Shown here piece by piece: positions 1 through 18,329 of a stretch of DNA of 39,947 bases (positions are counted from its first letter, which is position 1; each line of letters starts with the position of its first letter). The stretch is taken from NCBI GenBank assembly GCA_913020495.1, contig CAJWBJ010000027.1:1-39947 (forward strand), given 5' to 3'. The notes under the pieces are model-generated. The model worked only from the letters and a program-made list of their open reading frames with translations. It was not told the origin of the DNA and searched no databases. The position numbers and the translations under genes are program-made. This DNA is from an uncultured Oleiphilus sp. GTDB taxonomy: Bacteria; Pseudomonadota; Gammaproteobacteria; Pseudomonadales; Oleiphilaceae.

Positions 1-822
1 ATGGTGTTTTTGAACTGGACAGAATTACCTTGGTTTTGGCAGGGAATGGATCAATTTTGGTTTGCGATGATTATGGTTGCGGTAGTGCCGGGCTTATTAG
101 CTTTTGTCTTTGGCTGGTTAGCGTTCCGTTCACGTGTCACGGGCGTATATCTATCGATCATTACGCAGGCTCTCACTTACGCTTTAATGTTGTCATTCTT
201 CCGAAATGAAATGGGCTTTGGTGGTACCAATGGGCTAACAGATTTTAAAGAAATTCTTGGTTTTAGTCTGCAAGAAGACAGTACGCGTATTGGGCTATTT
301 ATCGCGACCTCAACTTTGCTCTCAGTTGCACTGGTATTAAGTCATTTTATTTTCAAATCACGTTTCGGTAAGGTGATTATCGCCATTCGGGATGGTGAAA
401 ATCGAGCACGCTTTATCGGTTACCGTGCTGAACGTTATAAAGTATGGCTGTTTGTCTATTCAGCGGTTATTGCGGGTGTGGCGGGTGCTTTATATGTACC
501 GCAAGTAGGGATTATTAACCCTGGTGAGTTCTCACCAATCAACTCGATTGAAATTGTTATCTGGGTTGCTGTGGGTGGTCGTGCCACATTAATTGGTGCC
601 GTTGTAGGAGCTCTATTGGTGAATTATGCGAAGACTCGTTTTACTGCAATTATGCCTGAAGCTTGGTTATTTGCTCTAGGTGCTTTATTCGTATTAGTGA
701 CTTTATATTTACCAAACGGACTAATGGGTTTAAGGGCGCAGCTGCAAGACCGTAAAACCAAGCGTGAGCAGCTAGCGAGCAGTCTATCTGCACAAGAAAG
801 TTCTCAGGAGAAAGCATCATGA
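1..822 (+). CDS. urtC: Urea ABC transporter permease UrtC (5' partial)
   Basis: This is one of two inner-membrane permease subunits of the urea uptake ABC transporter of the branched-chain amino-acid (HAAT) type. The reading frame is open from the first base and gives 273 residues, whereas UrtC is usually about 350-380, so the N-terminus lies outside the window; the ATG at base 1 is most likely an internal methionine. Several hydrophobic segments are visible, together with the family segment VGGRATLIGAVVGA near residues 190-205 and a charged cytoplasmic tail. Its stop overlaps the start of urtD by four bases (ATGA at 819-822), implying translational coupling. urtA and urtB are expected upstream, outside the window. 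The identity is supported by the UrtD and UrtE genes that follow and by the urease genes beyond them. Confidence 0.93.
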   Translation: MVFLNWTELPWFWQGMDQFWFAMIMVAVVPGLLAFVFGWLAFRSRVTGVYLSIITQALTYALMLSFFRNEMGFGGTNGLTDFKEILGFSLQEDSTRIGLFIATSTLLSVALVLSHFIFKSRFGKVIIAIRDGENRARFIGYRAERYKVWLFVYSAVIAGVAGALYVPQVGIINPGEFSPINSIEIVIWVAVGGRATLIGAVVGALLVNYAKTRFTAIMPEAWLFALGALFVLVTLYLPNGLMGLRAQLQDRKTKREQLASSLSAQESSQEKAS

Positions 823-1667
823 GTATTTTAGATAGTCATCTATTGGATGACACCCGAGAGCTATTTCGACGTGATAAAGTTTGGTCGTTCATGCAGCCAC
901 ATGAACCGATGGTTGATGTTTCAAAAAACGTCATTCTGTATATCGAAGGATTATCGGTCAGCTTTGATGGCTTTAAAGCATTAAATGATATGAACTTATA
1001 TATCAATGACGGTGAGTTACGCTGCTTAATTGGCGCGAATGGCGCGGGAAAAACAACCTTAATGGATGTGATTACCGGTAAAACACAGTGTGACGAAGGT
1101 TCTGTTTACTTTGGACAGACGCATAACTTGTTAGAAAAAGATGAGGCCGAAATATCGCAACTGGGGATTGGGCGAAAATTCCAGAAGCCAACAGTTTTTG
1201 AAGCGCATACGGTTTTAGATAATTTAGAATTAGCACTAAAAACGAATAAATCGGTTATCCCTACATTATTTGGCAAGCTAAGTTCGACCGATATAGACCG
1301 TATTGACCATGTTTTGAAAACGATTGGTTTGAAAGAAAACCGTATGTTATTAGCGGGATCTTTATCTCATGGCCAAAAACAATGGTTAGAAATTGGCATG
1401 TTGTTAGTCGCAGAACCGCGTTTGTTGTTGGTCGATGAACCCGTTGCAGGTATGACGGCTCAAGAGACTGAGCGGACTGCCGAACTACTGAACTCGCTAG
1501 CGGGTGAGCACACCGTGGTTGTAGTTGAGCATGATATGGAATTTGTACGCTCTATTGCTAAAACAGTAACGGTTTTGCACCAAGGCGCAGTATTGGCTGA
1601 AGGCACGATGGATGAAGTGCAAAATAATAAAGATGTACGTGAAGTGTACCTTGGTGAAGAGGAATAG
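819..1667 (+). CDS. urtD: Urea ABC transporter ATP-binding protein UrtD
   Basis: This is an ATPase subunit of the urea importer, 282 residues, acting at the cytoplasmic face of the membrane. Walker A is GANGAGKT at residues 72-79, the ABC signature is the LSHGQ variant in the middle of the protein, and Walker B is LLLVDEP followed by VAGM. The roughly 40-residue extension before the ABC fold is usual for UrtD compared with LivG. The gene starts inside the end of urtC (4-bp overlap) and is followed after 8 bp by urtE, so the three genes are one transcription unit. No motif is missing. Confidence 0.95.
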   Translation: MSILDSHLLDDTRELFRRDKVWSFMQPHEPMVDVSKNVILYIEGLSVSFDGFKALNDMNLYINDGELRCLIGANGAGKTTLMDVITGKTQCDEGSVYFGQTHNLLEKDEAEISQLGIGRKFQKPTVFEAHTVLDNLELALKTNKSVIPTLFGKLSSTDIDRIDHVLKTIGLKENRMLLAGSLSHGQKQWLEIGMLLVAEPRLLLVDEPVAGMTAQETERTAELLNSLAGEHTVVVVEHDMEFVRSIAKTVTVLHQGAVLAEGTMDEVQNNKDVREVYLGEEE

Positions 1668-1675
1668 GGTGAAGC

Positions 1676-2386
1676 ATGATTTCAATTAAAAAAGTTAATC
1701 AACATTACGGCGGCACGCAGATCCTTTGGGATTTAGATCTTGATATCGAACCTGGTTCACGTACTTGTATTATGGGTCGTAATGGAGTCGGTAAATCGAC
1801 GTTATTACAGTGCATGATGGGTTTACGGCCAATCACGAGTGGTGAAATTTTAATGGATGGCTCACCCATGCATACTAAATCTGCCGAAGCGCGTGCGCCT
1901 GCAGGTATTGGTTATGTTCCGCAAGGGCGTGAAATTTTTCCATTGTTGACAGTAGAAGAAAACCTGAGACTGGGTTTACCGATTCGTGCTCAGCGCTTAG
2001 GCAAGGATGAAGCGAAAGAAATTCCGAAAAAAATATTTGATTTGTTTCCCGTATTAGGCGAAATGATGCATCGCCGTGGAGGTGATTTATCGGGTGGTCA
2101 GCAGCAGCAGTTAGCGATTGGTCGAGCCTTAGTGATTGAGCCTAAAGTATTGATTTTGGACGAACCAAATGAAGGTATTCAGCCCAATATTGTTAAACAA
2201 ATTGGTGATGTTATTCTGAAACTAAACGAAGAAGAGGGCATGACTGTCATATTAGTTGAACAAAAATTAGGCTTTGCCAGACGAATCGGTCAATCATTTC
2301 GACTGATGGAACGTGGAAAAATAGTTGCTCAAGACAGTATGGATAAATTAAGCGATGACTTGATTAGTAAATATCTGGCAGTATAG
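1676..2386 (+). CDS. urtE: Urea ABC transporter ATP-binding protein UrtE
   Basis: This is the second ATPase of the urea importer, 236 residues and LivF-like. Walker A is GRNGVGKST near residues 35-43, the signature is LSGGQQQQ, and Walker B is VLILDEPNEGIQP; the EPNEGIQP form is characteristic of UrtE. The start is preceded by a good ribosome-binding sequence (GGGTGAAG). It is the last transporter gene; a 170-bp gap with decayed repeats separates it from ureD. Uptake by UrtABCDE delivers urea at low external concentration to the urease encoded just downstream. Confidence 0.95.
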   Translation: MISIKKVNQHYGGTQILWDLDLDIEPGSRTCIMGRNGVGKSTLLQCMMGLRPITSGEILMDGSPMHTKSAEARAPAGIGYVPQGREIFPLLTVEENLRLGLPIRAQRLGKDEAKEIPKKIFDLFPVLGEMMHRRGGDLSGGQQQQLAIGRALVIEPKVLILDEPNEGIQPNIVKQIGDVILKLNEEEGMTVILVEQKLGFARRIGQSFRLMERGKIVAQDSMDKLSDDLISKYLAV

Positions 2387-2556: not shown

Positions 2557-3465
2557 ATGAATATCCCGTTAGATCCCAAGTTAATCGATACTGCCGCTGT
2601 TGTAAATAATAAATGCCCGGTAGAAAGTTCAAGCTGGCAAGCTCGATTGGACTTGTCATTCGCTCAACGCAGTCGTGGCGTGCGCTTGGTGAAATGTGAA
2701 CATGAAGGGCCTTTGTATGTGCAAAAAGCTTTCTACCCTGAAGGACCTGATTGTGCTCATGTTTACCTTCTACACCCGCCAGGCGGACTTGTCACGGGTG
2801 ATACATTAACGATTTCTGTTGAAGCTCAAGCGGGTAGTCATGCCTTATTAACAACGCCAGGGGCAGGGCGCGTTTATAAGGCTCGTGAGGAAGAAGGTGT
2901 TCAGGCACAAAACTTACAGATTAGCGTACAAAAAAATGCCACCGTTGAGTGGTTTCCCTTAGAAACCATTCTTTTTCCCTCTGCACAAGCACGCATGAAA
3001 ACTCGCGTTGATTTAAGTGATAATGCGAATTTTATTGGTTGGGAGGTGACTTGTTTTGGTTTACCGGCTAACAATATTACTTTTGATTCGGGCTCCGTGT
3101 CACAGAATATGCAGATTTGGCGAGATGGTCGTATTCTCTTAAATGAAAATTTGGTGATAGATCAAGGTGATAGCGCTTTATTAAACGCCAATGCTGGGCT
3201 GCGCTCTTTACCTGTTCATGGTTTGATGATTGCGGGGCCCTTCAAAGACAATCGACTAGGTTTGATTGATGCCCTACGCTTGCTTCAAGCACAAACGGAT
3301 ACCAATGAATTTTTTGCCACCAGTCAGAGCGGTGAATTTATGACAGTTCGTTATCTGGGAAGCTGCACTGAAAAAGCACGTAAACTATTTACTCAGGCTT
3401 GGGTTTTAATTCGTCCTGAGTTAATTGAAAAACAAGTAGTAGCGCCCAGAATTTGGGCGACTTAA
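2557..3465 (+). CDS. ureD: Urease accessory protein UreD (UreH)
   Basis: This is a urease maturation factor of 302 residues. It binds the UreABC apoenzyme and, with UreF and UreG, lets nickel and CO2 reach the active site. Family segments visible are PPGGLVTGD near residues 74-82, LLTTPGAGRVYK near 97-108 and the central WFPLETILF. Length is typical (about 270-310). The first in-frame ATG is used; the ribosome-binding sequence in front of it is poor, so the exact start is less certain than the gene. It opens the urease cluster in the usual order ureD-A-B-C-E-F-G. Its last codons form a GC-rich hairpin (see 3443-3494). Confidence 0.95.
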   Translation: MNIPLDPKLIDTAAVVNNKCPVESSSWQARLDLSFAQRSRGVRLVKCEHEGPLYVQKAFYPEGPDCAHVYLLHPPGGLVTGDTLTISVEAQAGSHALLTTPGAGRVYKAREEEGVQAQNLQISVQKNATVEWFPLETILFPSAQARMKTRVDLSDNANFIGWEVTCFGLPANNITFDSGSVSQNMQIWRDGRILLNENLVIDQGDSALLNANAGLRSLPVHGLMIAGPFKDNRLGLIDALRLLQAQTDTNEFFATSQSGEFMTVRYLGSCTEKARKLFTQAWVLIRPELIEKQVVAPRIWAT

Positions 3466-3531: not shown

Positions 3532-3834
3532 ATGGAACTTTTACCAAGAGAAAAAGATAAGCTGCTAGTGTTTACTGCCGCCTTGCTAGCTGAAAGACGT
3601 TTGAATCGTGGGCTGAAGTTGAATTATCCAGAAGCCATGGCCTATCTGACGATGGAAATAATCGAAGGTGCTCGAGATGGTAGAACTGTCGCTGAATTAA
3701 TGAGTTACGGTAAAACTTTGCTAACTGAAGAGCAGGTCATGGAAGGGGTATCAAGCCTAATACATGAAGTGCAGGTCGAAGCCACGTTTCCTGATGGTAC
3801 TAAACTGGTCACTGTTCACGACCCAATCTGCTAA
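3532..3834 (+). CDS. ureA: Urease subunit gamma
   Basis: This is the smallest structural subunit of urease, 100 residues, the standard length for bacterial UreA. It begins [11 protein letters not shown] and contains the family stretches [10 protein letters not shown] near residues 25-34 and DGRTVAELM near 49-57. It packs with UreB and UreC into the (UreABC)3 cytoplasmic enzyme that splits urea into ammonia and carbamate. The start is preceded by GAGG about ten bases upstream. ureB follows after 12 bp. Confidence 0.97.
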
Positions 3835-3846
3835 GGAGATATTCTG

Positions 3847-4206
3847 ATGATTCCAGGTGAAATACAAACTGCTGCAGGCGATATTGAATTAAATGTTGGC
3901 CGAGAAACGCTCTCTTTACGTGTTGAAAATATTGGCGATAGACCTATTCAGGTCGGGTCGCATTATCATTTTTATGAAACCAATCTTGGTCTTCAGTTTG
4001 ACCGTGAAAAAACCAAAGGCTTTCGGCTTAATATTATTTCAGGTACAGCCGTAAGGTTCGAACCAGGGCAAGGCCGTGAAGTTGAGTTAGTAGCTTATGC
4101 GGGGGATCGTCAGGTATATGGTTTTCGAGGCGATGTGATGGGCTTTTTGGATGATTCTTCTATTAACAGTAATACTGGTACGGATCAAAATGGAGGAGCT
4201 GTCTGA
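3847..4206 (+). CDS. ureB: Urease subunit beta
   Basis: This is the beta subunit of urease, 119 residues, slightly longer than the usual 101-106 because of a polar C-terminal tail after the [12 protein letters not shown] segment. It begins [19 protein letters not shown], the canonical N-terminus, and carries [12 protein letters not shown] near residues 36-47. A strong ribosome-binding site (AAGGAGAT) precedes it, and its stop overlaps the ureC start by one base (TGATG), so the two are translationally coupled. Confidence 0.97.
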
Positions 4207-5912
4207 TGGCTAAAATGGATAGAGCTAGTTATGCACAAATGTTTGGCCCAACCACGGGTGACAAAGTACGCTTAGCGGATACAGACCTTTGGATTCAAGT
4301 CGAAAAAGATTACACCACTTACGGCGATGAAGTGAAATTTGGCGGTGGTAAAGTAATACGTGACGGCATGGGGCAAAGTCAGCGACCTAGTGCAGAAACT
4401 GCTGACTTAGTCATCACTAATGCCTTGATTTTAGATCATTGGGGTATCGTTAAAGCCGATGTTGGTATCAAAGAAGGCCGTATTGACGGTATAGGCAAAG
4501 CGGGTAATCCGGATATCCAGGATAATATCGACATTATTATTGGCCCTGGAACCGAAGTGATCGCCGGTGAAGGCTCTATTCTGACCGCAGGTGGCATTGA
4601 TGCCCATATTCATTTTATTTGTCCGCAGCAAGTCGAAGAAGCGCTGATGTCAGGGGTCACCACCATGATTGGTGGCGGAACAGGCCCAGCAACGGGGACT
4701 AATGCCACAACCTGTACGCCAGGCCCGTGGTATATCGGAAAAATGCTGCAGTCGACAGATTGCATGCCGATGAACTTTGGCTTCTTAGGAAAAGGAAATG
4801 CTAGTTTACCGGAAGGTTTACGTGAGCAGTTAGAAGCAGGTGCTTGCGGCTTAAAATTACATGAAGATTGGGGCACGACACCCGCTTCAATTGATTGTTG
4901 TTTATCTGTCGCTGAAGAATACGATGTGCAGGTAGCGATTCATACCGATACACTGAATGAGTCAGGTTTTGTTGACGACACAATTGGTGCATTTAAAGAT
5001 CGCGTCATACATACCTACCATACTGAAGGTGCGGGCGGTGGTCATGCACCGGATATTATTCGAGCGTGTTCACATCCAAATGTATTACCGTCTTCAACGA
5101 ACCCAACGCGCCCTTTTACCCGTAATACCGTTGATGAACATTTAGATATGCTGATGGTATGTCATCACTTGGATAGCAGTATTCCAGAAGATGTGGCGTT
5201 TGCTGATTCACGTATTCGTAAAGAAACCATTGCCGCCGAAGATATATTTCATGACCGTGGTGCTTTCAGTATGATTTCTTCAGACTCTCAAGCCATGGGG
5301 CGAGTAGGTGAAGTGATCACACGTACTTGGCAAACAGCACATAAAATGAAACAACAGTTTGGCTTATTGGAAGAAGATAAAGCAACCGGGGCTGATAACT
5401 TCCGTGCCCGCCGTTATATTTCTAAGTACACCATTAACCCTGCGATTGCTCATGGTATTTCTCATGAAGTTGGCTCGATTGAAAAAGGTAAACTGGCCGA
5501 TTTAGTGTTATGGAAACCTGCTTTCTTTGGTATTAAACCGTCCGCCATTATAAAAGGCGGCATGATTGCCGCAGCGCCGATGGGCGACCCTAATGCCTCA
5601 ATACCTACGCCTCAGCCAGTGCATTATCGACCGATGTTTGGTGCTCAAGGTTTAGCGGCCGCTAAAACCTCGGTGACTTTCGTCTCTGAAGCCGCTATGA
5701 AAAATGGTATTGGTGAAAAACTGGAACTCTCACGAAATTTGAGCTCTTGTAAAAATACCCGAAATATTCGTAAAACCGATATGGTATTGAATGATTGGAT
5801 GCCAGAAATAACGGTTGATCCACAAACGTATGAAGTACGTGCAGACGGTGAATTACTTACATGTGAACCAGCAACAGAGTTACCATTATCTCAGCTCTAT
5901 ACCTTGTTTTAA
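4206..5912 (+). CDS. ureC: Urease subunit alpha (catalytic, dinickel)
   Basis: This is the catalytic subunit of urease, 568 residues. All metal and catalytic residues are present and fall at the same numbers as in the Klebsiella enzyme: H134 and H136 in DAHIHF, the carbamylated K217 in GLKLHED, H246 in AIHTDT, H272 in TYHTEG, D360 in SSDSQA, and the flap C319 and general acid H320 in MVCHHLD. The enzyme should therefore be active once matured. It starts on the last base of the ureB stop with GGAGGAG just upstream. A 160-bp gap with a decayed REP-like hairpin separates it from ureE. Confidence 0.98.
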
Positions 5913-6072: not shown

Positions 6073-6531
6073 ATGTTAGAAGTCTATGAACGTCTCGGCA
6101 TGCATTGTCATGACCCTGTTGCTGAAACGATAACCTTAAATCATGATCAGCGAAATAAGGGTCGAATAAAGGCAATGAGTTTATCAGGTACTGAAGTTCG
6201 TATCTTTTTGGAGCGTGGTAATCCATTGCTTGTTGGCGAATTTCTAAAAACTGAATGTGGAAAAGTTGTACAAGTTGAAGGTGCTGTCGAAGCAGTCGCC
6301 CATGCAAGCTGTGACGATTGGCATAACTTTTCGCGTGCTTGTTATCACCTAGGTAATCGACATTCAAAGATAGAGATCGGTGATCGATGGTTACGTATTA
6401 AACCGGATCATGTTTTAGAAGAAATGGTGCATTTATTAGGCTTGGTAGTCTCGCATGAAGAGGCGGTATTTGCACCCGAGTCAGGTGCTTATAATCTTGG
6501 TCGACATGTAGGTGGTCACAACCACAATTAA
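6073..6531 (+). CDS. ureE: Urease accessory protein UreE (nickel metallochaperone)
   Basis: This protein of 152 residues is the dimeric nickel carrier that hands nickel to UreG and the urease pre-activation complex. The central metal-binding segment CYHLGNRH holds H92, the residue equivalent to the conserved nickel histidine, and H97; PDHVL places another likely ligand at H113. The C-terminus ends HVGGHNHN, a short histidine tail compared with the long tail of Klebsiella UreE. The ATG chosen follows a GAGAGG stretch about 18 bases upstream, so initiation may be weak. A 7-bp inverted repeat straddles the stop (6513-6519 with 6534-6540). Confidence 0.95.
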   Translation: MLEVYERLGMHCHDPVAETITLNHDQRNKGRIKAMSLSGTEVRIFLERGNPLLVGEFLKTECGKVVQVEGAVEAVAHASCDDWHNFSRACYHLGNRHSKIEIGDRWLRIKPDHVLEEMVHLLGLVVSHEEAVFAPESGAYNLGRHVGGHNHN

Positions 6532-6584: not shown

Positions 6585-7271
6585 ATGAGTAATTCTTTGG
6601 CTTTAGCGCGGTTACTACAACTAAGCAGCGTTAGCTTACCTGTGGGTGGTTATGCTTTTTCGCAAGGGTTGGAGTATGCCATTGAATGTGCTTGGATTAA
6701 AAAATACGAGGATGTTGAGGAGTGGATCAAGCTACAATTAAAAGAAAATCTAGCGCGTGTTGATTTACCGATACTTAGAGGCGTGATGGAAAGTTGCCAA
6801 GCGTTGGATTGGTCACGTTTTCGTTATTTGAATGATTTAGCCATCGCCTCACGTGAAACTAAAGAGCTGCGCTTGACCGATACTGCGATGGGTGAAGCCC
6901 TATATCGGCTGTTAAAGAGTTTAGATTTCACTTTTCCTTTTGAAAGCGAAGGTGCAGGTATTGTGAAGAATGAATTGAGTTTTGTTAGCTTATTTGCCTA
7001 TGCGGCCCAATGTTGGGATATTCCATATGAAGAAACCGCTACGGGTTTTACTTGGTCATGGCTAGAGAATCAGGTTGCAGCAGCAACTAAGTTGGTCCCA
7101 TTAGGGCAAACTCAGGCTCAGCAGTTACTGACCCTCTTTCAGCCTGCAATCGCTCAGACGATTGAGCAGGCCGAACGTACTTTAGAAGATAATATTGGCG
7201 GAGGCTTACCCGCTTTGGCAATTGCGAGTGCTTTGCATGAAGCACAGTACAGTCGGTTATTTCGATCGTAA
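6585..7271 (+). CDS. ureF: Urease accessory protein UreF
   Basis: This is a urease maturation factor of 228 residues, all-helical in known structures, which bridges UreD-bound apo-urease and the UreG GTPase. The characteristic N-terminal segment LARLLQLSSVSLPVGGYAFS is present at residues 7-26, followed by SQGLEYAIE, and a central SRETKELR near residues 88-95. Length matches the family. It has a good ribosome-binding site (AAGGGA). It is separated from ureG by a 147-bp gap with another repeat fragment. Confidence 0.95.
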   Translation: MSNSLALARLLQLSSVSLPVGGYAFSQGLEYAIECAWIKKYEDVEEWIKLQLKENLARVDLPILRGVMESCQALDWSRFRYLNDLAIASRETKELRLTDTAMGEALYRLLKSLDFTFPFESEGAGIVKNELSFVSLFAYAAQCWDIPYEETATGFTWSWLENQVAAATKLVPLGQTQAQQLLTLFQPAIAQTIEQAERTLEDNIGGGLPALAIASALHEAQYSRLFRS

Positions 7272-7418: not shown

Positions 7419-8063
7419 ATGTCAAAAAAACAAACTTTACGAATAGGTGTCGGTGGCCCGGTTGGCTCAGGTAAAACAGCTTTGTTACGTTCTCTTTGTG
7501 CCACAATGAAGGACCATTACAATATTGCAGTGGTAACAAATGATATTTACACCCAAGAAGATGCCTTGTTTTTAACCAAGCATAAAGCCTTGGAAGCCGA
7601 CCGTATTATTGGTGTTGAAACGGGAGGGTGCCCACACACCGCTATTCGTGAAGATGCCTCAATGAATTTGGCTGCCATTGATCAGTTAATGGCCCGACAC
7701 GGTGAACTGGATGTCGTGTTTGTAGAGTCGGGGGGAGATAACCTCAGTGCCACCTTTAGTCCGGAGCTGTCTGATCTGACCATTTATGTCATTGATGTTT
7801 CAGCAGGCGACAAAATACCCCGTAAAGGCGGGCCGGGTATTACCAAATCTGATTTACTGATTATCAATAAAATAGACCTAGCTCCTTTGGTGGGCGCCTC
7901 TTTAGAGGTGATGGATCAAGATGCAAAGAAAATGCGAGGGGATCGACCTTTTGTGTTTTCAAATTTGAAGAAAGCTCAAGGATTGGATGATATTATCCAA
8001 TTTATTCTGACAGAAGGGATGCTTGAGGTGAAAACCTTACCACCGGCTAAATCTGTTATTTAA
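7419..8063 (+). CDS. ureG: Urease accessory GTPase UreG
   Basis: This is the SIMIBI-class GTPase that carries nickel as a GTP-bound dimer and drives its delivery into urease, 214 residues. The P-loop is GGPVGSGKT at residues 12-20, the nickel-binding CPH motif is residues 71-73 in [13 protein letters not shown], and the guanine-specificity motif is NKID at 150-153. All three are intact. It is the last gene of the urease cluster. A small hairpin (CCCTTA with TAAGGG) follows the stop without a T run. The signalling pair downstream is on the same strand after 56 bp and may be read from the same transcript. Confidence 0.97.
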
Positions 8064-8119: not shown

Positions 8120-11100
8120 ATGACAGCTAGACAGAAAATATTAAAGGTTCGACGTCACTATAATCAGTGGGTGGCGAACCAAACGATGGAGGATTACGCG
8201 CTTAGGTTTACTGCTCGAAAAGCACGCACGATGAGCATTAGTCGTGTCGGTAAAACGGCTCTTGGAGCGACGGCATTTTTAGCGCTTGAAAGTATCGCTG
8301 CCGCTGTGACATTAAGCTACGGTTTCGTAAATACCATTGTGGCAATGTTGGTGGTTGCGGCTGTCTTCTTTATCACAGGTTTTCCCATTGCTTACCATTC
8401 AGCTAAACATGGTTTGGATATTGATTTACTTACTCGTGGAGCAGGGTTTGGCTATTTGGGCTCAACGATTACCTCGCTTATTTATGCTTCGTTTACCTTT
8501 ATTTTCTTCGCTATTGAGGCCGCCATTCTGGCGTCAGCCTTAAATGCACTGCTTGGTATTCCTCTATTCGTTGGTTACTTTCTCTGTGCTGTTGCAGTAA
8601 TTCCTATTGTGATGAAAGGCATCACCACGATTAGCCGCTTTCAGGTTGGTACACAAACACTGTGGCTGGTTCTTCAAATAAGCGCCATCTTTATAGTTGT
8701 GTTTTATGAGTTCGAACGCTTAGAAGGCTGGACAGCGTATACACCCCAAGTGCTTCCCGCAGCAAATGAATTCAGTTGGTTGCTATTTGGTGCTGCGGCA
8801 TCCGTTTTTTTTGCTTTAGTCGCTCAAATTGGCGAGCAAGTTGATTATTTACGTTTCTTACCTCCAAAGACTGAAAAAAATAAGCGTGAGTGGTGGTTCT
8901 GGTTGACCCTTGCTGGGCCGGGCTGGATTTTTATTGGTGTGATAAAAATGCTATTCGGCTCATTTGTTGCCTATCTAGCGATTACCGAAGGTGCAGGGTA
9001 TTTCACCGCGAGTGATCCTACTTATATGTATGAACGGGTGTTTAATTACTTAACGCAATCGCCAACGCTTGCCTTGGTTTTAGCTGCCATTATGGTGATT
9101 ATTTCGCAGATGAAAATTAATGTGACGAATGCCTATGCGGGCTCTATTGCATGGTCAAATTTCTTCTCCAGAGCAACGCATAGTCATCCTGGGCGAGTTG
9201 TTTGGCTGGTATTTAATGTGACTATCGCGTTAATTTTGATGGAGCTAGGAATTCATGAGGCCTTGGAAGCTATCTTAGGTGTCTTTGCGATTGTTGCGGT
9301 TAGCTGGTTAGGTTCACTCTCTGCCGACTTACTTATCAATAAACCTTTGGGTTTAAGCCCTTCTTTTGTCGAGTTTAAACGAGGCCATTTGTATGACATT
9401 AACCCCGTAGGGGTTGGCTCAATGTTTCTAGCGACATCGTTAGGTATGATCAGTTATCTGGGTGTTTTTGGTGAGTTAACACGTAATTTAAGTCATTTTG
9501 TTAGTCTGTTGGTTTGTTTTATTGCTGTGCCAGGCATTGCCTGGTTAACGAAAGGTAAATACTACCTAGCTAGACAATCACCTGAACTCATTTCTCTGAT
9601 TGAAAAACACCCCGTTGAAAACCAGAGTCCGGGCTTATTAAAAACTCATCAGTCGATAACCTGTGGTATTTGTGAAAATACCTTCGAATTAGAAGATATG
9701 AGCTATTGTGGCGTTTATGCTCAACCAATCTGTTCTTTATGTTGTTCGCTTGATGTCCGCTGTTTAGATGGCTGTAAACCACACGCTCGTTTGTCTCGTC
9801 AGTTTGCGAACTTCTTAAGGCGGTTTATTTCAGGTAAAGCGGTTCGTTTTGTAAATTCCAGGTTAGGACGTTTTATGGGCTTGTTGTTCATTACGAACCT
9901 GATCAATGCCGCATTACTTGCTTTAGTATATGAGCATATGAGGCCTGCTATTTTGTCAGAACAAGTGGTGCTACAAGAAAGTTTAGTGACCTTGTTTTTT
10001 ATTTTCCTGATCGTAAGTGGCGTCATTTCATGGTTGTTTTTACTTGCACATGAGAGTCGTGTGATTGCCCAGATGGAATCAAACCGACAAACAAGAAAAC
10101 TTATGCGTGAAATTGATGCTCATCAACAGACTGATATGGAGCTACAGGACGCAAAAGAGTCAGCTGAAAAAGCAAACGATGCAAAGAGCCGGTATTTATC
10201 AGGTATCAGCCACGAATTAAGAACCCCTTTGCAGTCTATTCTAGGTTATGCACAGTTACTGTCAGATAAGTCCGATCTGACCGAATCTCAAACCCGAGGC
10301 TTAAACATTATTCATCGGAGTGGGCAGCATTTAGCTGACTTAATCGAAGGCTTATTAGATATCTCTAAAATAGAAGCAGGGCGTTTGGACCTGTATCGTA
10401 ATCGAGTGCAGCTTCCAGAGCTATTAGAGCAACTTGCCAATATGTTCAAAATGCAGGCAACAAATAAAGGTGTTCAACTCAACTTCATCATTCATGACCG
10501 ATTACCTAGCGTGGTGATGGCGGATGAGAAACGGCTTCGCCAGATATTGATTAACCTACTTTCAAATGCTGTTAAATATACTCAGGAAGGTGAAGTTAGT
10601 TTTGAAGTTAGTTATCGCTCACAAGTTGCTGAGTTTACGATCAAGGATACTGGTGCCGGTATTGACGAAGAATATCTGTCTAGAATTTTTGACCCCTTTG
10701 AGCGTGTTAGAAATCTGCAAACGCCCAATGTACAAGGAACGGGTTTGGGTCTTACTATTGTTAAACTATTGACTGAGATTATGGGGGGAGAATTACGGGT
10801 AGATTCTAAGCTAGGTGAGGGGAGTGTTTTTAAAGTATCTTTGATGTTACCTTGGATCAATACGAAAGAAAAAGAAGAGTCTGTGAAAGCTAAAGTTGTG
10901 GGGTATGAGGGCTATCAGCGAATAATTTGCTTAGTTGACGATGACCCTGTTTTACGAGGTTTCCTATCAGATTTACTCATACCATTAGGATTTACAACTT
11001 TAGAAGCATTTGATGCTGAATCTTGTTTGAACTTGCTTGATCAGGCCAAACCTGATTTGTTTTTGATGGATGTTTCCATGCCTGGCAAAAATGGTTTTGA

Positions 11101-11569
11101 ATTGGCAAAAATGCTTCGTGAGCGAGGGGTTCAAGCGCCTATTTTGATGCTATCGGCGAATGCCCACTTACCTAATCAAAGGGCGCCTGACCAGAAGTCT
11201 AATAATTGTGTAGCTTATAGTGACTATTTGGTGAAGCCCATTAGCAATACTGCATTGCTAGATAAATTAGCAGAATATCTAAAACTGAATTGGATCACAC
11301 AGGGGCATCATAGTGATTTGGAATCTGATTTTTCTGATATTGATGATCAGAAGAAGAATAAAAAAGCTTTTGTGATACCTGATCATGCTTTAGTTCGTGA
11401 GCTTAAAGCTTACGCAGAGATGGGCTATCGTAAAGGTGTAGTGCAAACGTTAATACAAGTGCTGGAAGAAGATATAATTAACTCTGAATTGCATAAACAC
11501 CTAGCAGACCTAAGTGCTAACTTTCAATTTGAACAGCTTGCTGCTTGTTTGGAACCGGATAAAAAATGA
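8120..11569 (+). CDS. Hybrid sensor histidine kinase with NCS1-permease-like sensor domain
   Basis: This 1149-residue inner-membrane sensor starts with NQTMEDYALRFTARKAR and about a dozen hydrophobic segments (to about residue 490) that resemble NCS1 nucleobase/cation symporters. It continues with a cluster of eight cysteines (515, 518, 530, 538, 541, 542, 548, 552) plus H555, two more membrane helices (about 584-606 and 622-645), a coiled coil, and HisKA with phospho-acceptor H698 in SGISHELRTP. HATPase_c follows with an N box near 811-822 and GTGLGLTIVK near 873. A receiver with D984 in LFLMDVSMPG and a helical tail complete it. The layout parallels CbrA, where an SLC5-like transporter is fused to a kinase. 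Its place after urtCDE-ureDABCEFG suggests it detects urea, or a purine or hydantoin-type precursor; that is inference. Initiation is poorly marked. It overlaps the response regulator by 4 bp. Confidence 0.88.
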   Translation: MTARQKILKVRRHYNQWVANQTMEDYALRFTARKARTMSISRVGKTALGATAFLALESIAAAVTLSYGFVNTIVAMLVVAAVFFITGFPIAYHSAKHGLDIDLLTRGAGFGYLGSTITSLIYASFTFIFFAIEAAILASALNALLGIPLFVGYFLCAVAVIPIVMKGITTISRFQVGTQTLWLVLQISAIFIVVFYEFERLEGWTAYTPQVLPAANEFSWLLFGAAASVFFALVAQIGEQVDYLRFLPPKTEKNKREWWFWLTLAGPGWIFIGVIKMLFGSFVAYLAITEGAGYFTASDPTYMYERVFNYLTQSPTLALVLAAIMVIISQMKINVTNAYAGSIAWSNFFSRATHSHPGRVVWLVFNVTIALILMELGIHEALEAILGVFAIVAVSWLGSLSADLLINKPLGLSPSFVEFKRGHLYDINPVGVGSMFLATSLGMISYLGVFGELTRNLSHFVSLLVCFIAVPGIAWLTKGKYYLARQSPELISLIEKHPVENQSPGLLKTHQSITCGICENTFELEDMSYCGVYAQPICSLCCSLDVRCLDGCKPHARLSRQFANFLRRFISGKAVRFVNSRLGRFMGLLFITNLINAALLALVYEHMRPAILSEQVVLQESLVTLFFIFLIVSGVISWLFLLAHESRVIAQMESNRQTRKLMREIDAHQQTDMELQDAKESAEKANDAKSRYLSGISHELRTPLQSILGYAQLLSDKSDLTESQTRGLNIIHRSGQHLADLIEGLLDISKIEAGRLDLYRNRVQLPELLEQLANMFKMQATNKGVQLNFIIHDRLPSVVMADEKRLRQILINLLSNAVKYTQEGEVSFEVSYRSQVAEFTIKDTGAGIDEEYLSRIFDPFERVRNLQTPNVQGTGLGLTIVKLLTEIMGGELRVDSKLGEGSVFKVSLMLPWINTKEKEESVKAKVVGYEGYQRIICLVDDDPVLRGFLSDLLIPLGFTTLEAFDAESCLNLLDQAKPDLFLMDVSMPGKNGFELAKMLRERGVQAPILMLSANAHLPNQRAPDQKSNNCVAYSDYLVKPISNTALLDKLAEYLKLNWITQGHHSDLESDFSDIDDQKKNKKAFVIPDHALVRELKAYAEMGYRKGVVQTLIQVLEEDIINSELHKHLADLSANFQFEQLAACLEPDKK

Positions 11570-12477
11570 ACACATTGACACATACAGATATTGTACTTGT
11601 GGTGGACGATTCGCCAGATGCGCTTAGTTTAATTAATGATGCATTAGAAGTTGAAGGTTTGGATGTACTTGTCGCACTAGAGGGGCGTCAAGCTTTAACA
11701 ATCGCTAAACGAATTCGCCCTGATGTCATATTGCTTGATGCTGTCATGCCCGTTATGGATGGCTTTGAAACCTGTAAACAGTTGAAATTAAATTCAGACC
11801 TTGCGGATATTCCTGTTATTTTTATGACCGGTTTATCTGACACAGATGATATTGTAAAAGGTTTAGAAGTGGGTGGTGTTGATTATTTAATAAAACCTAT
11901 CAACCCGGCAGAACTTATCGCAAGGATGAAGGTTCATTTAAAAAATGCGAGGCTGACCAAAAGTGCACAGTCAGCATTGGATAGTACTGGTCAACACTTA
12001 TTTACTGCCACAAATGAGGGGGAGGTCCGGTGGGCAACTCCTCAAACCTATGCTTTGTTTGCAAAGGCTAAAGTTGACGGGTATGACTTAAGTGGCACTT
12101 TTGTTTCGCAATTAGCGGCATGGATGTTCGGCACTCTTAAGCCGGGTGACATATTGATATTAAAGGGCTTGGATTACCCTCTTTCAATTCGTTTTGTCGG
12201 CCAGCATAGTAGTGGGGATCGTTTGATAAAATTGATAGATGGTAATCGGCCTATTGAAGCAGCGTTGCTCAGGGCTAAACTGGACTTAACTGAACGTGAA
12301 GCAGAAGTACTATTCTGGATTGCGAATGGGAAAACAAATCGTGATACTGCTGAAATACTTGCTATGAGTCCTCGTACAGTAAATAAACATCTTGAAATGA
12401 TTTTCCCTAAACTAGGTGTCGAAAACAGAACCGCTGCAGCAGGTATTGCACTCAGGTTACTATCAGAGAGTTTCTAG
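11566..12477 (+). CDS. LuxR-family response regulator (REC-linker-HTH)
   Basis: This is the cognate response regulator of the upstream hybrid kinase, 303 residues. The N-terminal receiver has the acidic pair D14-D15, phospho-acceptor D58 in VILLDAVMP and conserved K110 in YLIKP. Residues about 125-235 form a middle region of uncertain fold, possibly PAS-like. The C-terminus is a LuxR/GerE helix-turn-helix: LTEREAEVLFWIANGKTNRD then RTVNKHLEMIFPKLGVENR. The start overlaps the kinase stop (ATGA), so the two are co-translated. It is likely to control the adjacent urea genes, but no operator could be identified. Its TAG stop lies in a CTAG that is also the stop of the convergent gene. Confidence 0.9.
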   Translation: MNTLTHTDIVLVVDDSPDALSLINDALEVEGLDVLVALEGRQALTIAKRIRPDVILLDAVMPVMDGFETCKQLKLNSDLADIPVIFMTGLSDTDDIVKGLEVGGVDYLIKPINPAELIARMKVHLKNARLTKSAQSALDSTGQHLFTATNEGEVRWATPQTYALFAKAKVDGYDLSGTFVSQLAAWMFGTLKPGDILILKGLDYPLSIRFVGQHSSGDRLIKLIDGNRPIEAALLRAKLDLTEREAEVLFWIANGKTNRDTAEILAMSPRTVNKHLEMIFPKLGVENRTAAAGIALRLLSESF

Positions 12478-14570
12478 TCGCCTTCGCTAAAATCATAATT
12501 CATTTCAGCAGCGGGTGCTTGTAAGTAATACCCTTGAATATAGTTTACTCCTGCCTGCCATAAAGTTGATAACAATGATGCGCTTTCAACTAAAGGAACA
12601 ATGGTTATTTTACCCATTGATTGTAGCGTTTGAATCATTTCTTTAGCGTGTTCTTTTTCTTCATCACCTTTTTGCATATCTTTAGTAAAAGAACCTTCCA
12701 GTTTAATGTATTCAGGCTCAATGTGCTTAAGTAAATTAAAGGGTTTTAAAGCGTGCCCGAATTGGTTGATTGACATTTTACAGTGCAAAGTATTAATGCC
12801 TTTTGCAAATTCTTTTGCTTGTTTCATATAGCTGATAGCACTGGCTTCTGAGACCTGGAAGATTAGTGAGTCTCCAGGGAGTCTCGCTGCTTTCAAGGCC
12901 ACATTCAGCCATGATGTAAAGGTTTTGTCTTGTAGTGTTTCTGAGGTCAGGTTAATAAATAGCTTTGTTTCATGACCTTTGGATCTATGCTCGCTAAGGT
13001 GCTTGATAGTTTGTAATATTACCCATTTATCAACTTTGTTGGCCATCATGCTTGGACCTGTTGGCGGCAAGAAATCATAAGGTGATATCTCTTCTCCTTC
13101 ACTATTAAGCATTCTGATGAATGCCTCGTAATGCTCATCTCCTTGGCCTCGGAGGCTAATAATAGGCTGAAAAAGTAGTTTAAATTTATTACTATCCAAA
13201 GCGTCCTGAATTAGGCTTGTGGCAATGTCATGATCATCTGAGAATGAATCTTTCTTTGGTGTATAAAGACGTACGCCATTGCCATTTTCATGGCCTTCCT
13301 GTTCTTTAACTTCTTGTGCCGCAGTTTGTGCCCGGCCAAGAATATCATTGCTGTCAGGGGCATTCTCAGTAATTAAGGTGGCACCAATACTCAGTGTAAT
13401 CTGTAAGGTTTTTCCTTCAATTTCGAATAGGTGGTCTTCGATTGTTTTTCGGTAAATTTCAGCTAATTCCAGCATGTCATTACTGTTTTTTGTTGATGCA
13501 ATAACACCAAATACGTCATCACTTAATCGTGCTAATGAGTAAGTTTCATTCGTATGCTCATCTAAAGTATGAGCTAGGTCTCGAAGCATTAAATCCGCAT
13601 CTGCCATACCCAAATCTGTTTTGATCTTTTGGAACTTATCAATAGATAAATACAGCACGGCTGCAGGTGTATGATTATGTACCGCTATTTCTTTGGCTGT
13701 GTGTAGGTGCTCCATAAAATACTGGCGATTGTGCAGACCGGTTAATAAGTCTTGCTGGCTCATTTCTTTTATTTTTTCTTGTAACTCAACGCTATCTTGC
13801 TCTGGCCTGATAATAACCTGTAAGCAACGTTCTCCATCATAGCTTGCTTCCGATAAACTCATCGTTACATTAATTTCGGTACCATCTTCTCTAACTGTGG
13901 TGCTATTAATTTCAGCGATTGGTTCAAAAGTATTACTTTCGGTAAATAGTTTGGAGAAATCTTTAAAGCTTTTTTGAGCATCAGATGACAAGGTATCCAG
14001 AACAGGTACGCAGATCATTTCATCGATATCGTCATAACCCAAAAAATCCATATATGATGTATTCGCGTAAATGTGCATGCCATCACTAATATAGGCAATT
14101 GCATCTTTTGAACTGTCTAGCAATAATTCACAGCGGTGCTCTACATCGTGAATTTGGACTTCCATCAAATGTAATTTTTTGCGGATTATACGATTTTCTA
14201 GTTCTCGTCGAATGGCAACCACAATATGTTTTTCATTTTCGAAAGGGATGACATCTTTTGCCCCCGCTTTTATATGATTAACAGTATTGTCGTGATCATA
14301 GTTTTGGCTAAGGACAATAAAAGGGATGTCCCGATCTTTTTTCTGAATATAAATTAATGCCTGATCTAAATCGAAGTCAGCTTCTTCTTCTCTTGCGAGA
14401 AATAAGTCCCAAGATTGTTCTTCAAGTGCTGCGATTAAATCTTCTTCATCATCAATGCGTTTTGCGCGCGTCGGTATCCCGGCGTTGCGTAGCAAGCTGA
14501 CCATTTTTTCGGCATCATTCTCTGATTTATCGAGAATTAATAAAAATATAGTTTCTTTTGTTCTGCTCAT
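12474..14570 (-). CDS. FimX-like REC-PAS-GGDEF-EAL protein, degenerate catalytic motifs
   Basis: This cytoplasmic signalling protein has 698 residues, close to the 691 of Pseudomonas FimX and with the same domain order. Residues 1-125 resemble a receiver but have no aspartate where phosphorylation would occur (AREEE at 59-63). A PAS domain follows at about 145-260, then a GGDEF domain whose active-site motif is LSDDVF (349-354) and an EAL domain with EAF (482-484) and NQFG (602-605) in place of DDFG; K623 is kept in IKLEGSF. Neither c-di-GMP synthesis nor hydrolysis is expected; c-di-GMP binding and control of type IV pili, as in FimX, are likely by analogy. The gene upstream in the same orientation encodes a PilZ-like protein. 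Confidence 0.82.
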   Translation of the reverse strand: MSRTKETIFLLILDKSENDAEKMVSLLRNAGIPTRAKRIDDEEDLIAALEEQSWDLFLAREEEADFDLDQALIYIQKKDRDIPFIVLSQNYDHDNTVNHIKAGAKDVIPFENEKHIVVAIRRELENRIIRKKLHLMEVQIHDVEHRCELLLDSSKDAIAYISDGMHIYANTSYMDFLGYDDIDEMICVPVLDTLSSDAQKSFKDFSKLFTESNTFEPIAEINSTTVREDGTEINVTMSLSEASYDGERCLQVIIRPEQDSVELQEKIKEMSQQDLLTGLHNRQYFMEHLHTAKEIAVHNHTPAAVLYLSIDKFQKIKTDLGMADADLMLRDLAHTLDEHTNETYSLARLSDDVFGVIASTKNSNDMLELAEIYRKTIEDHLFEIEGKTLQITLSIGATLITENAPDSNDILGRAQTAAQEVKEQEGHENGNGVRLYTPKKDSFSDDHDIATSLIQDALDSNKFKLLFQPIISLRGQGDEHYEAFIRMLNSEGEEISPYDFLPPTGPSMMANKVDKWVILQTIKHLSEHRSKGHETKLFINLTSETLQDKTFTSWLNVALKAARLPGDSLIFQVSEASAISYMKQAKEFAKGINTLHCKMSINQFGHALKPFNLLKHIEPEYIKLEGSFTKDMQKGDEEKEHAKEMIQTLQSMGKITIVPLVESASLLSTLWQAGVNYIQGYYLQAPAAEMNYDFSEGD

Positions 14571-14623: not shown

Positions 14624-16423
14624 TTATAGTGTTGGCCATAGAGAATCGAAATCATCTTCAGACTCTTTAGGGCTATTAGTTTTGTTAAGCATATTTTCAC
14701 CTTTGAATTGAGCACTTTCTGATAATTCAAACTGGCTAAAGCTACCCGTAGCAGAAACTCGTTTTTCTAACTGGCATTTGTTTTCAGTATCGCTTAATTT
14801 TATTGACACTTTATGACCTGATTGAAAAGGAAGTCGAGGCGTGATTAATGTCGCCGGTTGGCCTATTCCACTTAATTCAGGCAATAGCATGCCTCGTAAA
14901 AATTCACTAGGGTCGCCAGTTCGGTTTAATAACTGAACCCCACAAGGTTGTGCATTGGGTGCTAATAATTCAATGCCAATTTGGGTGCCTTTTTTCTTAA
15001 TGTGACGAATCCAACGGACTACAGCAATGCTCCAAGCCTGATTGTCTGTTTCTCTTAAACATATGATTTCACCAGCCTGAATATTTTTAGGTACTTCGCC
15101 TGACCATTGAAGGCAGTATCCGCCGGGGCTTGTATTGATTAGTGGTATAGAATAATGAGGGTAGCTTTCGTTGCTTTTATCAACAGGGCGGTTAAACGAT
15201 ATGTCAGAACCTACAGGTGTTGTTGGGCTTGCAGAGTGCCCACCAGTATCATAAGCCCCTGACCAGGCATCACCTTGATGTTTAGCTCGAGTTAGAAAAA
15301 TATTGTCATCACTATTAATTTTTGAAACATTTCGATGCAGCATTTGAGTATGAAACTCGACTTCTCCTGAAGTATAAAAATGAGACGCACTTAAACCAAT
15401 ACATAAATTTAGCGAACCCTGATTAGCAATGCGTTTAAATGTTCGTTTGGTAAGGATGCCGAATGCTTGATTCAGATGATTGATCAGCACATCAGATAAG
15501 CCCTTAGGGGATGTTAGATGAGAGCTGCCATCACCTTGTTTCTTCTGGAGTGAACTGAGGTGTTCTGTTAACCGATCAACTAGCTCTGCTGTGTCAAAAC
15601 CATAGTAATGCTCAGTTAAGGTATTGTGTAGCAAGCTACGATATCGTGGTGGTAAGTCTTGTTCCATATTAATAACGAAGACAGAGTTCGCAGAGTATTC
15701 AGCGCCTGCTTCAACATAATCGGACCAAATTTCAAATGCGTCATAAACTAATTGAATATCAGATTGTCTGAGTTGGTTAGGTCGACAGCAGCTTAGTAAT
15801 AGATTTTGCTTATATGCCTGATCTATGCGTGTTTCTTGAAGGTGCTTGTTTTCTTCATCGGTAATAATATATTTAAGTAGGCTAACGGTTTCAGCAAATT
15901 TAAAAACAAGATGCATATCAAGCCAAATACCTTTTGGCGGAGGCGAATACAGCTGATTAGCCCTCAGTAATACCACTCCGTACTCAGAGATCATTCTGTG
16001 AGCAGCGCAGGAGAAATTTCTTCGAGTTTTTTCATTTGCTATTTGAGGTGCTGAATCAAACATGACTATTTTATAGCCACTCGCTAAATGTATTTGTATT
16101 GCTTGAGCTAAATTAGCAACTTTTTGCTGTTTGTCTGATAAAACAATTGATTGATTGAGAAAATGTTTTGAAAGTTCCTGGCAAACATAATGGATGGGCT
16201 TACGCATTATTTCCAATAGCTGAGAGCGGATATTTGGTGAAATTATTAGCTTATTGAGTTCTATAATTGCTTGATATAATTGGCGAGAAGTTTCGCCGAT
16301 ATTTGCCATGGGCAAGTTTTTTACCCACAGCTTCATTGCCGTTGGTGTGTGGTCGGTAAAAGATAAACTCGTTAGAGTTTGTTCTGGTACGGATATGTTT
16401 AATTTTATTTCAGGGCCAAGCAT
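14624..16423 (-). CDS. PilZ-like domain protein next to the FimX-like gene
   Basis: A protein of 599 residues with no signal peptide or membrane helix. The first 380 residues are mostly helical and I recognise no catalytic domain in them. Residues about 405-490 look like a PilZ barrel: NTSPGG (430-435) fits the [D/N]xSxxG motif, and WSIAVVRWIRHIKKKGTQIGIEL fits the strands that follow. The usual RxxxR motif before it is not apparent, so c-di-GMP binding is uncertain. A low-complexity acidic tail ends DSLWPTL. The gene lies 53 bp upstream of the FimX-like gene on the same strand, an arrangement I recall from Pseudomonas (PA4958-PA4959). A role in c-di-GMP-linked motility is inference. Confidence 0.7.
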   Translation of the reverse strand: MLGPEIKLNISVPEQTLTSLSFTDHTPTAMKLWVKNLPMANIGETSRQLYQAIIELNKLIISPNIRSQLLEIMRKPIHYVCQELSKHFLNQSIVLSDKQQKVANLAQAIQIHLASGYKIVMFDSAPQIANEKTRRNFSCAAHRMISEYGVVLLRANQLYSPPPKGIWLDMHLVFKFAETVSLLKYIITDEENKHLQETRIDQAYKQNLLLSCCRPNQLRQSDIQLVYDAFEIWSDYVEAGAEYSANSVFVINMEQDLPPRYRSLLHNTLTEHYYGFDTAELVDRLTEHLSSLQKKQGDGSSHLTSPKGLSDVLINHLNQAFGILTKRTFKRIANQGSLNLCIGLSASHFYTSGEVEFHTQMLHRNVSKINSDDNIFLTRAKHQGDAWSGAYDTGGHSASPTTPVGSDISFNRPVDKSNESYPHYSIPLINTSPGGYCLQWSGEVPKNIQAGEIICLRETDNQAWSIAVVRWIRHIKKKGTQIGIELLAPNAQPCGVQLLNRTGDPSEFLRGMLLPELSGIGQPATLITPRLPFQSGHKVSIKLSDTENKCQLEKRVSATGSFSQFELSESAQFKGENMLNKTNSPKESEDDFDSLWPTL

Positions 16424-17652: not shown

Positions 17653-17751
17653 GAGCGCCTTTTATTGAAATGAGTCTTATCTGGACGGCTAATTTACACT
17701 GTCAATGCTAGTTAAGGCAATACCACGATATATGCTTATCAGTGAGGAAAT

Positions 17752-18324
17752 ATGGCAAATTATTCTACCAGCGAATTGCGCTCAGGTTTGAAAGTAATGT
17801 TGGATGGCGACCCTTGTGCTGTGGTCGCAAATGAACTCGTAAAACCAGGTAAGGGTCAAGCATTTAGCCGTACCAAATTACGGAATCTTCGATCAGGTCG
17901 TATTTGGGAGCGAACCTTCAAGTCTAATGAATCACTTGAAGGTGCAGACGTCATGGATTATGACATGGAGTACCTTTATACCGATGGTGAATTCTGGCAC
18001 TTTATGATGACTGATGGTTCTTTCGAGCAGCATGCTGCGGATGAAAATGCGGTAGCAGATAGCGTGAAATGGTTAAAAGAGCAGGAAGTATACGAGGTAA
18101 CGTTATTTAATGGTGCTCCGCTTTCTGTAACACCACCTAATTTTATTGAACTGGAAGTTGTTGAAACTGACCCTGGTCTTAAAGGAGATACAGCTCAAGG
18201 CGGCACAAAACCCGCTACATTTTCAACCGGTGCAACCGTAAACGTCCCACTGTTTGTGAATATTGGTGAAGTACTACGCCTTGATACACGTACTAATGAA
18301 TACGTTAGTCGCGCTAAGTCGTAA
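17752..18324 (+). CDS. efp: Translation elongation factor P
   Basis: This is EF-P, 190 residues, which binds ribosomes stalled at polyproline stretches and promotes peptide bond formation. The modification loop is KPGKGQAF at residues 31-38, so the lysylated residue is K34, as in E. coli; this matches the EpmA/EpmB genes on either side. The three-barrel length and the C-terminal segment [20 protein letters not shown] are standard. A clear ribosome-binding site (GAGGAAAT) precedes the ATG. epmA begins five bases after the stop. EpmC, the hydroxylase for the same lysine, is not in this window. Confidence 0.97.
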
Positions 18325-18329
18325 AACGT

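Follow-up and report, generated by a model that had tools for sequence, protein, structure and literature searches.

A predicted urea/amide sensor kinase with an NCS1-like membrane domain and its candidate operator at urea and amide operons of Pseudomonadota

Fusions of a transporter domain with a histidine kinase are already known as a kind, with CbrA, CrbS and RpuS (the SLC5/STAC kinases) carrying an SLC5 domain and Ks-Amt5 an ammonium transporter (Amt) domain. CrbS is reportedly a hybrid kinase, its partner is said to be of the LuxR type, and Ks-Amt5 of Kuenenia is said to be an ammonium transporter-kinase. In UhpC/UhpB, a transporter-like sensor is homologous to the transporter of the same substrate. 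Such transporter-kinase fusions were called rare in the consulted part of a preprint on CbrA (PMC13022988). Here, the subject is a contig of 39,947 nt from an uncultured Oleiphilus sp., analysed whole and referred to as the window, in which urea uptake and urease genes are followed by a permease-like hybrid histidine kinase and its response regulator.

The kinase resembles CbrA, CrbS and RpuS in that a LeuT-fold transporter domain is fused to a histidine kinase. Moreover, according to the consulted part of the same preprint, a Lys occupies the Na2 site of CbrA, whose uptake needs the proton motive force (PMC13022988), and the invariant Lys332 found here maps to a Na2 residue of CodB. The differences from the CbrA type lie in the membrane domain, whose closest structural matches are of the NCS1 type (CodB/Mhp1) and not SLC5, in an eight-cysteine module that follows this domain instead, no STAC domain being among the Pfam matches (whether Pfam holds such a model was unchecked), and in the predicted targets, which are urea and amide genes. 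Ks-Amt5 likewise joins a nitrogen-compound transporter domain to a kinase, but its domain is of the Amt type and its ligand is ammonium, whereas UhpC and UhpB are separate proteins of the MFS fold concerned with sugar phosphate. The NCS1 permeases (TC 2.A.39) CodB, Mhp1 and MetT have the fold in common with the present domain, which differs from them in being fused to a kinase, in lying below detection by Pfam PF02133 and in altered pocket residues.

We consider it quite probable that the protein is a urea/amide 'transceptor' kinase controlling the urt-ure genes by means of the LuxR-type regulator and an operator. The ligand of the NCS1-fold domain would most likely be urea in the present lineage and an amide of the formamide/acetamide type in sister lineages. 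The Cys-rich module, followed by a further membrane/helical linker, would pass the binding event on to the kinase, which would control the regulator. The regulator would in turn bind the palindrome TACGTCA-N2-TGACGTA upstream of urtA, presumably as an activator rather than a repressor, and thereby control uptake, hydrolysis and its own genes. Given its position at the end of the cluster, the kinase-regulator pair probably also regulates its own expression through feedback; the membrane domain may also have retained transport.

The genes of the window were called as open reading frames (ORFs) and named by Pfam/NCBIfam profiles and position (Table 1). The contig begins within urtC, and a second contig of the same genome, C67, holds urtA, urtB and the beginning of urtC; the last 25 residues of its open UrtC frame are, by eye, the first 25 of the ORF at 1-822 of the window. 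From this match, the cluster would run over both contigs in the order urtABCDE-ureDABCEFG-kinase-regulator. An earlier note, made from the letters of this DNA alone, had placed the kinase 56 bp past ureG on the same strand and overlapping its regulator, after urt and ure genes, with its membrane domain joined to a full hybrid histidine kinase. All of this was borne out: the ORFs exist, the overlap is 4 bp, the profiles agree with the gene names, and Pfam finds HisKA, HATPase_c and Response_reg, with H698 and D984 conserved, as expected of a hybrid histidine kinase. The partner combines Response_reg and GerE, as in NarL/FixJ-type (LuxR) regulators, and a similar regulator adjoins the kinase in most relatives. 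No Hpt family was among the Pfam matches of the window proteins.

Relatives of the kinase were searched for at increasing phylogenetic distance, with matches in 13 of 58 near genomes, 18 of 369 genomes of the class and 61 of 398 genomes of the phylum. Strong relatives (E 1e-90 or better, in kinase-sized frames) occurred in 52 of the 398 phylum genomes, and a scan of genome contigs returned at least 574 relatives, the best 80 of which were kept as 'named loci'. The phylum sample was drawn from matches to a kinase-free query and comprised 54 of the 57 strong places, G000, G029 and G164 being already in other sets. A survey of co-occurrence with urt/ure, which the earlier note had proposed, was made: at fixed thresholds, urea or amide markers adjoined the kinase at 52 of the 54 phylum-sample loci (36 amide and 16 urea, both misses being cut by the contig end), and they were found in none of 20 control windows taken at hand-picked offset positions in the same genomes. 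The markers were likewise present at all 12 near-relative loci, at 67 of the 80 named loci (of the 13 misses, 9 were on stretches shorter than 12 kb), and at 10 of 19 class-sample loci, divergent forms included. In these neighbour counts, and in the operator count over 164 loci given below, L055 and L082 (one contig) and the overlapping L153 and L154 were counted twice.

Most relatives sit at short-chain-amide loci and not at urease loci. Most amide loci consist of divergent operons in which a Urt-like importer is joined by FmdA (formamidase), AmiE (aliphatic amidase) and a ClpB-like AAA protein, often with an FmdB-type zinc ribbon protein as well. When representatives were tested by profile, the aliphatic amidase and the formamidase scored above cut-off, as did the binding protein as UrtA and the permease as UrtB, so that the 'amide' label rests on the enzymes. 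A quick tree of 90 membrane domains, made with IQ-TREE, required 3 changes between urea and amide linkage over the 78 labelled rows, the 12 unlabelled rows being left aside, and four genomes (G562, G627, G648 and G780) have a paralogue at a urea locus and another at an amide locus. The proposal that the sensor controls urt/ure was therefore upheld as to the linkage and the operator before urtA, and proved too narrow for a family found mostly at amide loci; a purine branch of the same proposal found no support, purine/cytosine genes not being prominent at the loci read, where no systematic search for them was made. Two points weigh against the proposed function here: 8 of the 19 class-sample loci have no urea or amide neighbours, some of them with other kinase layouts, and the importers of the amide loci may carry urea too, which makes their cargo uncertain.

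Some members depart from the common pattern. L156, L157 and L169 are membrane-domain relatives without urea or amide markers, L157 having PAS domains and L169 no receiver, and they may sense something else. L216 and L226 encode kinases of ~895 aa beside FmdA, without an ABC (ATP-binding cassette) importer and with no match to a LuxR partner. A member outside Pseudomonadota, in the cyanobacterium Okeania sp. (L133:6473-9394), has a shorter kinase of 973 aa and was possibly acquired by transfer.

When 69 non-redundant intergenic regions between kinase and importer at amide loci were compared, the palindrome TACGTCA-N2-TGACGTA was the dominant signal. The dyad TACG-N8-CGTA was present in 44 of these regions against an expected 0.17, and a site matching at least 12 of the 14 positions in 47 of them, with none in 396 kb of control windows. 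Across 164 loci (3.03 Mb, L155 omitted), all 76 sites of at least 13/14 lay within 450 bp upstream of the gene for the substrate-binding protein (SBP/urtA), the kinase or fmdA. In amide loci, the site was mostly located between kinase and importer (48 of the 76), and 16 of the 76 were copies upstream of fmdA, as at L046, L048, L049, L050, L218 and L243, which suggests a second controlled promoter in these loci. By eye, a second, degenerate palindrome-like stretch past the main operator was observed at L139:10540-10570 and, upstream of urtA, at L061 and L065; it may be the site of a second regulator.

In the Oleiphilus genome itself (3.99 Mb assembly, 83% complete), a single site was found at one mismatch or fewer, TACGTCAAATGACGCA, whose start lies 149 bp before the start codon of urtA; six more appeared at two mismatches, against 9 for the reversed control. 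The window holds no operator at two mismatches or fewer, as expected if a single promoter before urtA drives the cluster.

The region before urtA was then compared over 30 urtA loci among the matches listed from 43 genomes. The five genomes with a urea-linked kinase scored 10, 13, 14, 14 and 13 of 14, four of them thus reaching at least 13/14. Scores were 8-10/14 in seven genomes with an amide-linked kinase only and 7-10/14 in eighteen kinase-free genomes, including the genus-mates G001 and G004, so that none of the 25 genomes without a urea-linked kinase reached 13/14 (none of 24 without L324 of G014, which was kept despite a failed reading-frame check). Similarly, in 25 hand-chosen genomes, the 15 with the kinase had 18 sites at one mismatch or fewer, of which a comparison of coordinates puts 17 at the linked operon, and the 10 without it had 4; the reversed-pattern control gave 4 and 8, respectively.

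A further comparison, whose outcome could have failed, covered 12 genomes in which the kinase locus mostly shows no urt gene. Five genomes of the window's clade (L058, L059, L060, L066 and L071), with no urt gene visible in the stretch around the kinase, had exactly one site at one mismatch or fewer, perfect and ~175-250 bp before the urtA match; L058, L060 and L066 were seen with 10-kb flanks and L059 and L071 on short stretches, and at L066 urtA may lie just ~13 kb off on the same contig. Of two loci holding ure genes, L072 had a 1-mismatch site before urtA and L068 a perfect site 1.4 kb before urtA, each with one more elsewhere. The cyanobacterial L133 had one site, away from urtA, and no site at one mismatch or fewer was found for L064, L075, L086 and L137, of which L064 and L086 had no full urtA match and L075 and L137 had one. 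Across genomes, the operator upstream of urtA tracks the urea-linked kinase.

It could be supposed that the operator belongs to another regulator and that the kinase pair is a mere genetic neighbour. Several observations weigh on that side and against control by the pair: among loci with a binding-protein gene, a site of at least 12/14 was present in only 60 of the 100 of amide type and 17 of the 25 of urea type (0 of 20 controls), G049, a distant urea-type genome, is the one scoring 10/14 before urtA, G433 has one unlinked site, and G448 has the kinase and no site at one mismatch or fewer. Where a name is available, the amide loci without a site come largely from Bradyrhizobium and further Alphaproteobacteria, in which the operator may have drifted. 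Binding of the operator by the regulator is itself only predicted. Nonetheless, the site's absence before urtA in genomes without a urea-linked kinase, genus-mates included, its persistence at urtA where this gene lies outside the kinase's locus, and its usual place between kinase and importer in amide loci make an independent regulator quite improbable.

The assignment of the membrane domain was a matter of structure. Residues 1-502 gave no Pfam match even at E 10, a profile search of the contigs found no PF02133 in the Oleiphilus genome, and sequence searches of Pfam and PDB returned no useful match, whether with the domain by itself or with profiles of it made from 13 or 90 rows. Residues 1-553 were modelled with AlphaFold2 (AF2) and compared with PDB structures by VIA-align and Foldseek. 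The first model, on 13 rows, was mediocre, with a predicted local distance difference test (pLDDT) score of 72.5; with 90 rows, an alignment that omits L103 (stop), L114 (N) and L055 (same contig as L082), pLDDT rose to 87.0, with a predicted template modelling (pTM) score of 0.89. The top five Foldseek matches of the latter were all CodB/Mhp1, and VIA-align gave Z 38.3 for CodB (root mean square deviation 3.1 A, 397 of 400 residues), about 27-33 (27.4-32.5) for Mhp1 and 25.4 for the best non-NCS1 structure; SLC5-type structures, which share the LeuT fold with all of these, reached about 22-24 against the 38.3 of CodB. In its predicted model, from which the assignment comes because profile searches gave nothing, the domain is NCS1 in fold, of the LeuT type, and it is probably NCS1 in ancestry as well, as a distant branch. 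Modelling, as the earlier note had envisaged, thus gave NCS1 permeases as the best structural matches; its NCS1-like call holds by structure and by an intermediate relative, L152, and lacks direct profile support. L014 (E 2.4e-4, 28% identity over residues 62-202) was discarded, as it falls in a 461-aa ORF that by eye resembles the alanine-symporter type.

Two relatives without a kinase bear most directly on the ligand. The permease L152:9092-10708 (-), of ~540 aa, lies in a urease operon, after ureG and before a NicO nickel permease (PF03824); it is ~40% identical to the membrane domain of the kinase and, unlike the kinase, is a PF02133 member by profile (31.8 bits against a cut-off of 23.5). 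Its Cys tail is reduced; a PDB match of this tail to a tetrahaem cytochrome (E 0.0014) was judged a coincidence of pattern, the CxxC motifs having no following His. The permease L151:10267-11943 (+), of 559 aa, has the full Cys module, gave no PF02133 match, and lies beside FmdA, FmdB and AmiE, where it takes the place of the usual ABC importer, divergent from a kinase. The family of the sensor domain thus has free members in amide and urea operons. As read from their sequences and neighbours, these relatives, two cases only, are the best evidence on the ligand, and the L152 permease is a candidate unrecognised urea transporter.

CodB residues were mapped onto the family by sequence alignment, not from model coordinates, with the substrate and ion residues taken from the consulted part of PMC9379551. 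A pocket comparison with cytosine permeases, also envisaged earlier, was made in this way: Arg216, Tyr285 and Asn280 of CodB are kept as Arg245, Tyr339 and Asn334, while Gln105 maps to Thr126, Trp108 to Phe129, Phe204 to an aliphatic residue (Val234 or Leu233, the gap placement being unsure) and Thr278/Thr279 of the Na2 site to Lys332/Ile333. In place of two substrate-sandwiching aromatics, the alignment has Phe129 and an aliphatic position, and the aromatic sandwich for rings appears weakened. Rows numbered 163 in the residue comparison, of which 24 ('both', 'noTM' or unlabelled) were set aside; Thr126, Glu133, Gln236, Glu239, Lys332, Asn334 and Tyr339 were invariant in all 139 labelled rows (38 urea, the kinase-free L152 included, and 101 amide). 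Residues separating urea from amide rows were at best partial (position 232, Ser/Ala), and no mapped pocket residue separated them cleanly. On this alignment the mapped pocket is near-identical in urea- and amide-type kinases and would leave their difference in ligand unexplained, which weighs against the ligands proposed here.

One shared signal would predict just such a likeness, and the pair might thus control urt/ure or fmd while the signal read by the domain is ammonium, the nitrogen status in general, some product or a compound akin to a nucleobase. Characterised bacterial NCS1 proteins, moreover, mostly take nitrogenous rings, according to the consulted part of PMC13390362; the same source, however, describes MetT as an NCS1 protein with a non-ring substrate, metformin. 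With the loss of one sandwiching position and with kinase-free relatives in urease and formamidase/amidase operons pointing to urea and amide handling, we regard such another signal as rather unlikely.

The eight-cysteine module (residues 515-552) had gone unmentioned in the earlier note, and all its Cys are invariant in 90 of 90 rows. Against PDB, it showed resemblance to a RING-like zinc protein only at E above 1. This invariance, and the nickel that urease needs, would suit a module that itself reads a metal or redox signal, the membrane domain serving only for transport or anchoring. Of the two kinase-free relatives, however, L151 has the whole module and L152 a reduced one, so that the module travels with the permease and not with the kinase, and formamidase loci carry it too; a cysteine sensor of this kind seems improbable to us, and urea or amide sensing by the membrane domain is preferred.

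Table 1. Positions of the cluster genes in the window and of the domains of the kinase
Feature	Position	Strand	Basis
urtC	1..822	+	NCBIfam TIGR03408 above cut-off; ORF cut at start, 5' end on contig C67
urtD	819..1667	+	TIGR03411 above cut-off
urtE, by position	1676..2386	+	ABC_tran and gene order
ureD	2557..3465	+	PF01774
ureA (urease gamma)	3532..3834	+	PF00547
ureB (urease beta)	3847..4206	+	PF00699
ureC	4206..5912	+	PRK13207, TIGR01792 above cut-off
ureE	6073..6531	+	PF05194, PF02814
ureF	6585..7271	+	PF01730
ureG	7419..8063	+	TIGR00101 above cut-off
Permease-like hybrid histidine kinase, 1149 aa	8120..11569	+	ORF, Pfam; N-terminal part in 90-row alignment
NCS1-like membrane domain (residues 1-502)	8120..9625	+	AF2 model, CodB/Mhp1 structural match
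8-cysteine module (C515, C518, C530, C538, C541, C542, C548, C552)	9662..9775	+	Invariant in 90 rows
HisKA (residues 688-754)	10181..10381	+	Pfam; H698 invariant in 10 aligned full-length kinases
HATPase_c (802-909)	10523..10846	+	Pfam
Kinase receiver domain, Response_reg (936-1050)	10925..11269	+	Pfam; D984 invariant in 10 aligned full-length kinases
Response regulator, 303 aa	11566..12477	+	Receiver (10-121), GerE/LuxR DNA-binding domain (241-293)

Beyond the pair, a GGDEF/EAL protein is encoded at 12474-14570 (-), its 3' end convergent with that of the regulator and overlapping it by 4 bp. This adjacency had led the earlier note to allow for control of cyclic di-GMP (c-di-GMP) or chemotaxis through the next genes. 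The GGDEF/EAL gene, however, is on the opposite strand, none of the stretches seen of 12 relatives has a clustered counterpart of it, and no operator at two mismatches or fewer lies in the window; such an output is highly improbable. Further along, a 599-aa protein at 14624-16423 (-) had no Pfam/NCBIfam match at E 0.001, and 16606-19298 holds an ordinary elongation factor P modification set, with genes for EpmB, for elongation factor P and for a class II tRNA-synthetase-like protein, the last EpmA-like as judged by its position.

Similar gene pairs have appeared in earlier work. Kinase and regulator genes of Dechloromonas aromatica are listed beside urtABCDE (PMC2907700 Table 4), and their sizes of 1131 and 308 aa fit this family, a likeness by size alone, with the sequences unchecked; in Ectopseudomonas guguanensis, two-component genes lie beside urt (PMC13296017 Fig. 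6). The consulted parts of these two papers describe no permease domain, operator or function for the genes. The ammonia-sensing kinase GrtK was dropped as a parallel for its PilS-like membrane domain, described in the consulted part of PMC12918730. In the open-access (PMC) literature, no NCS1-type kinase, no such operator and no such control of urea or amide genes was found described.

A broader proposal, on which we are evenly divided, is that the ligands of an undescribed large branch of the NCS1 fold are urea and short-chain amides and not nucleobases. Members of this branch without a kinase would be urea/amide permeases so far unrecognised as such, located in urease and formamidase operons, and members fused to a kinase, in about one in eight of the sampled phylum species, would be dedicated urea/amide receptors of Pseudomonadota acting through TACGTCA-N2-TGACGTA. 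The NCS1-type kinase is widespread and has a predicted operator, a clear target operon and kinase-free relatives in like operons, so that three questions can be put to a direct test: by what means bacteria sense urea and formamide, whether amides without a ring are handled by NCS1 folds, and how a kinase is driven by a transporter fold. The use of urea and formamide matters to nitrogen cycling in the sea and in soil.

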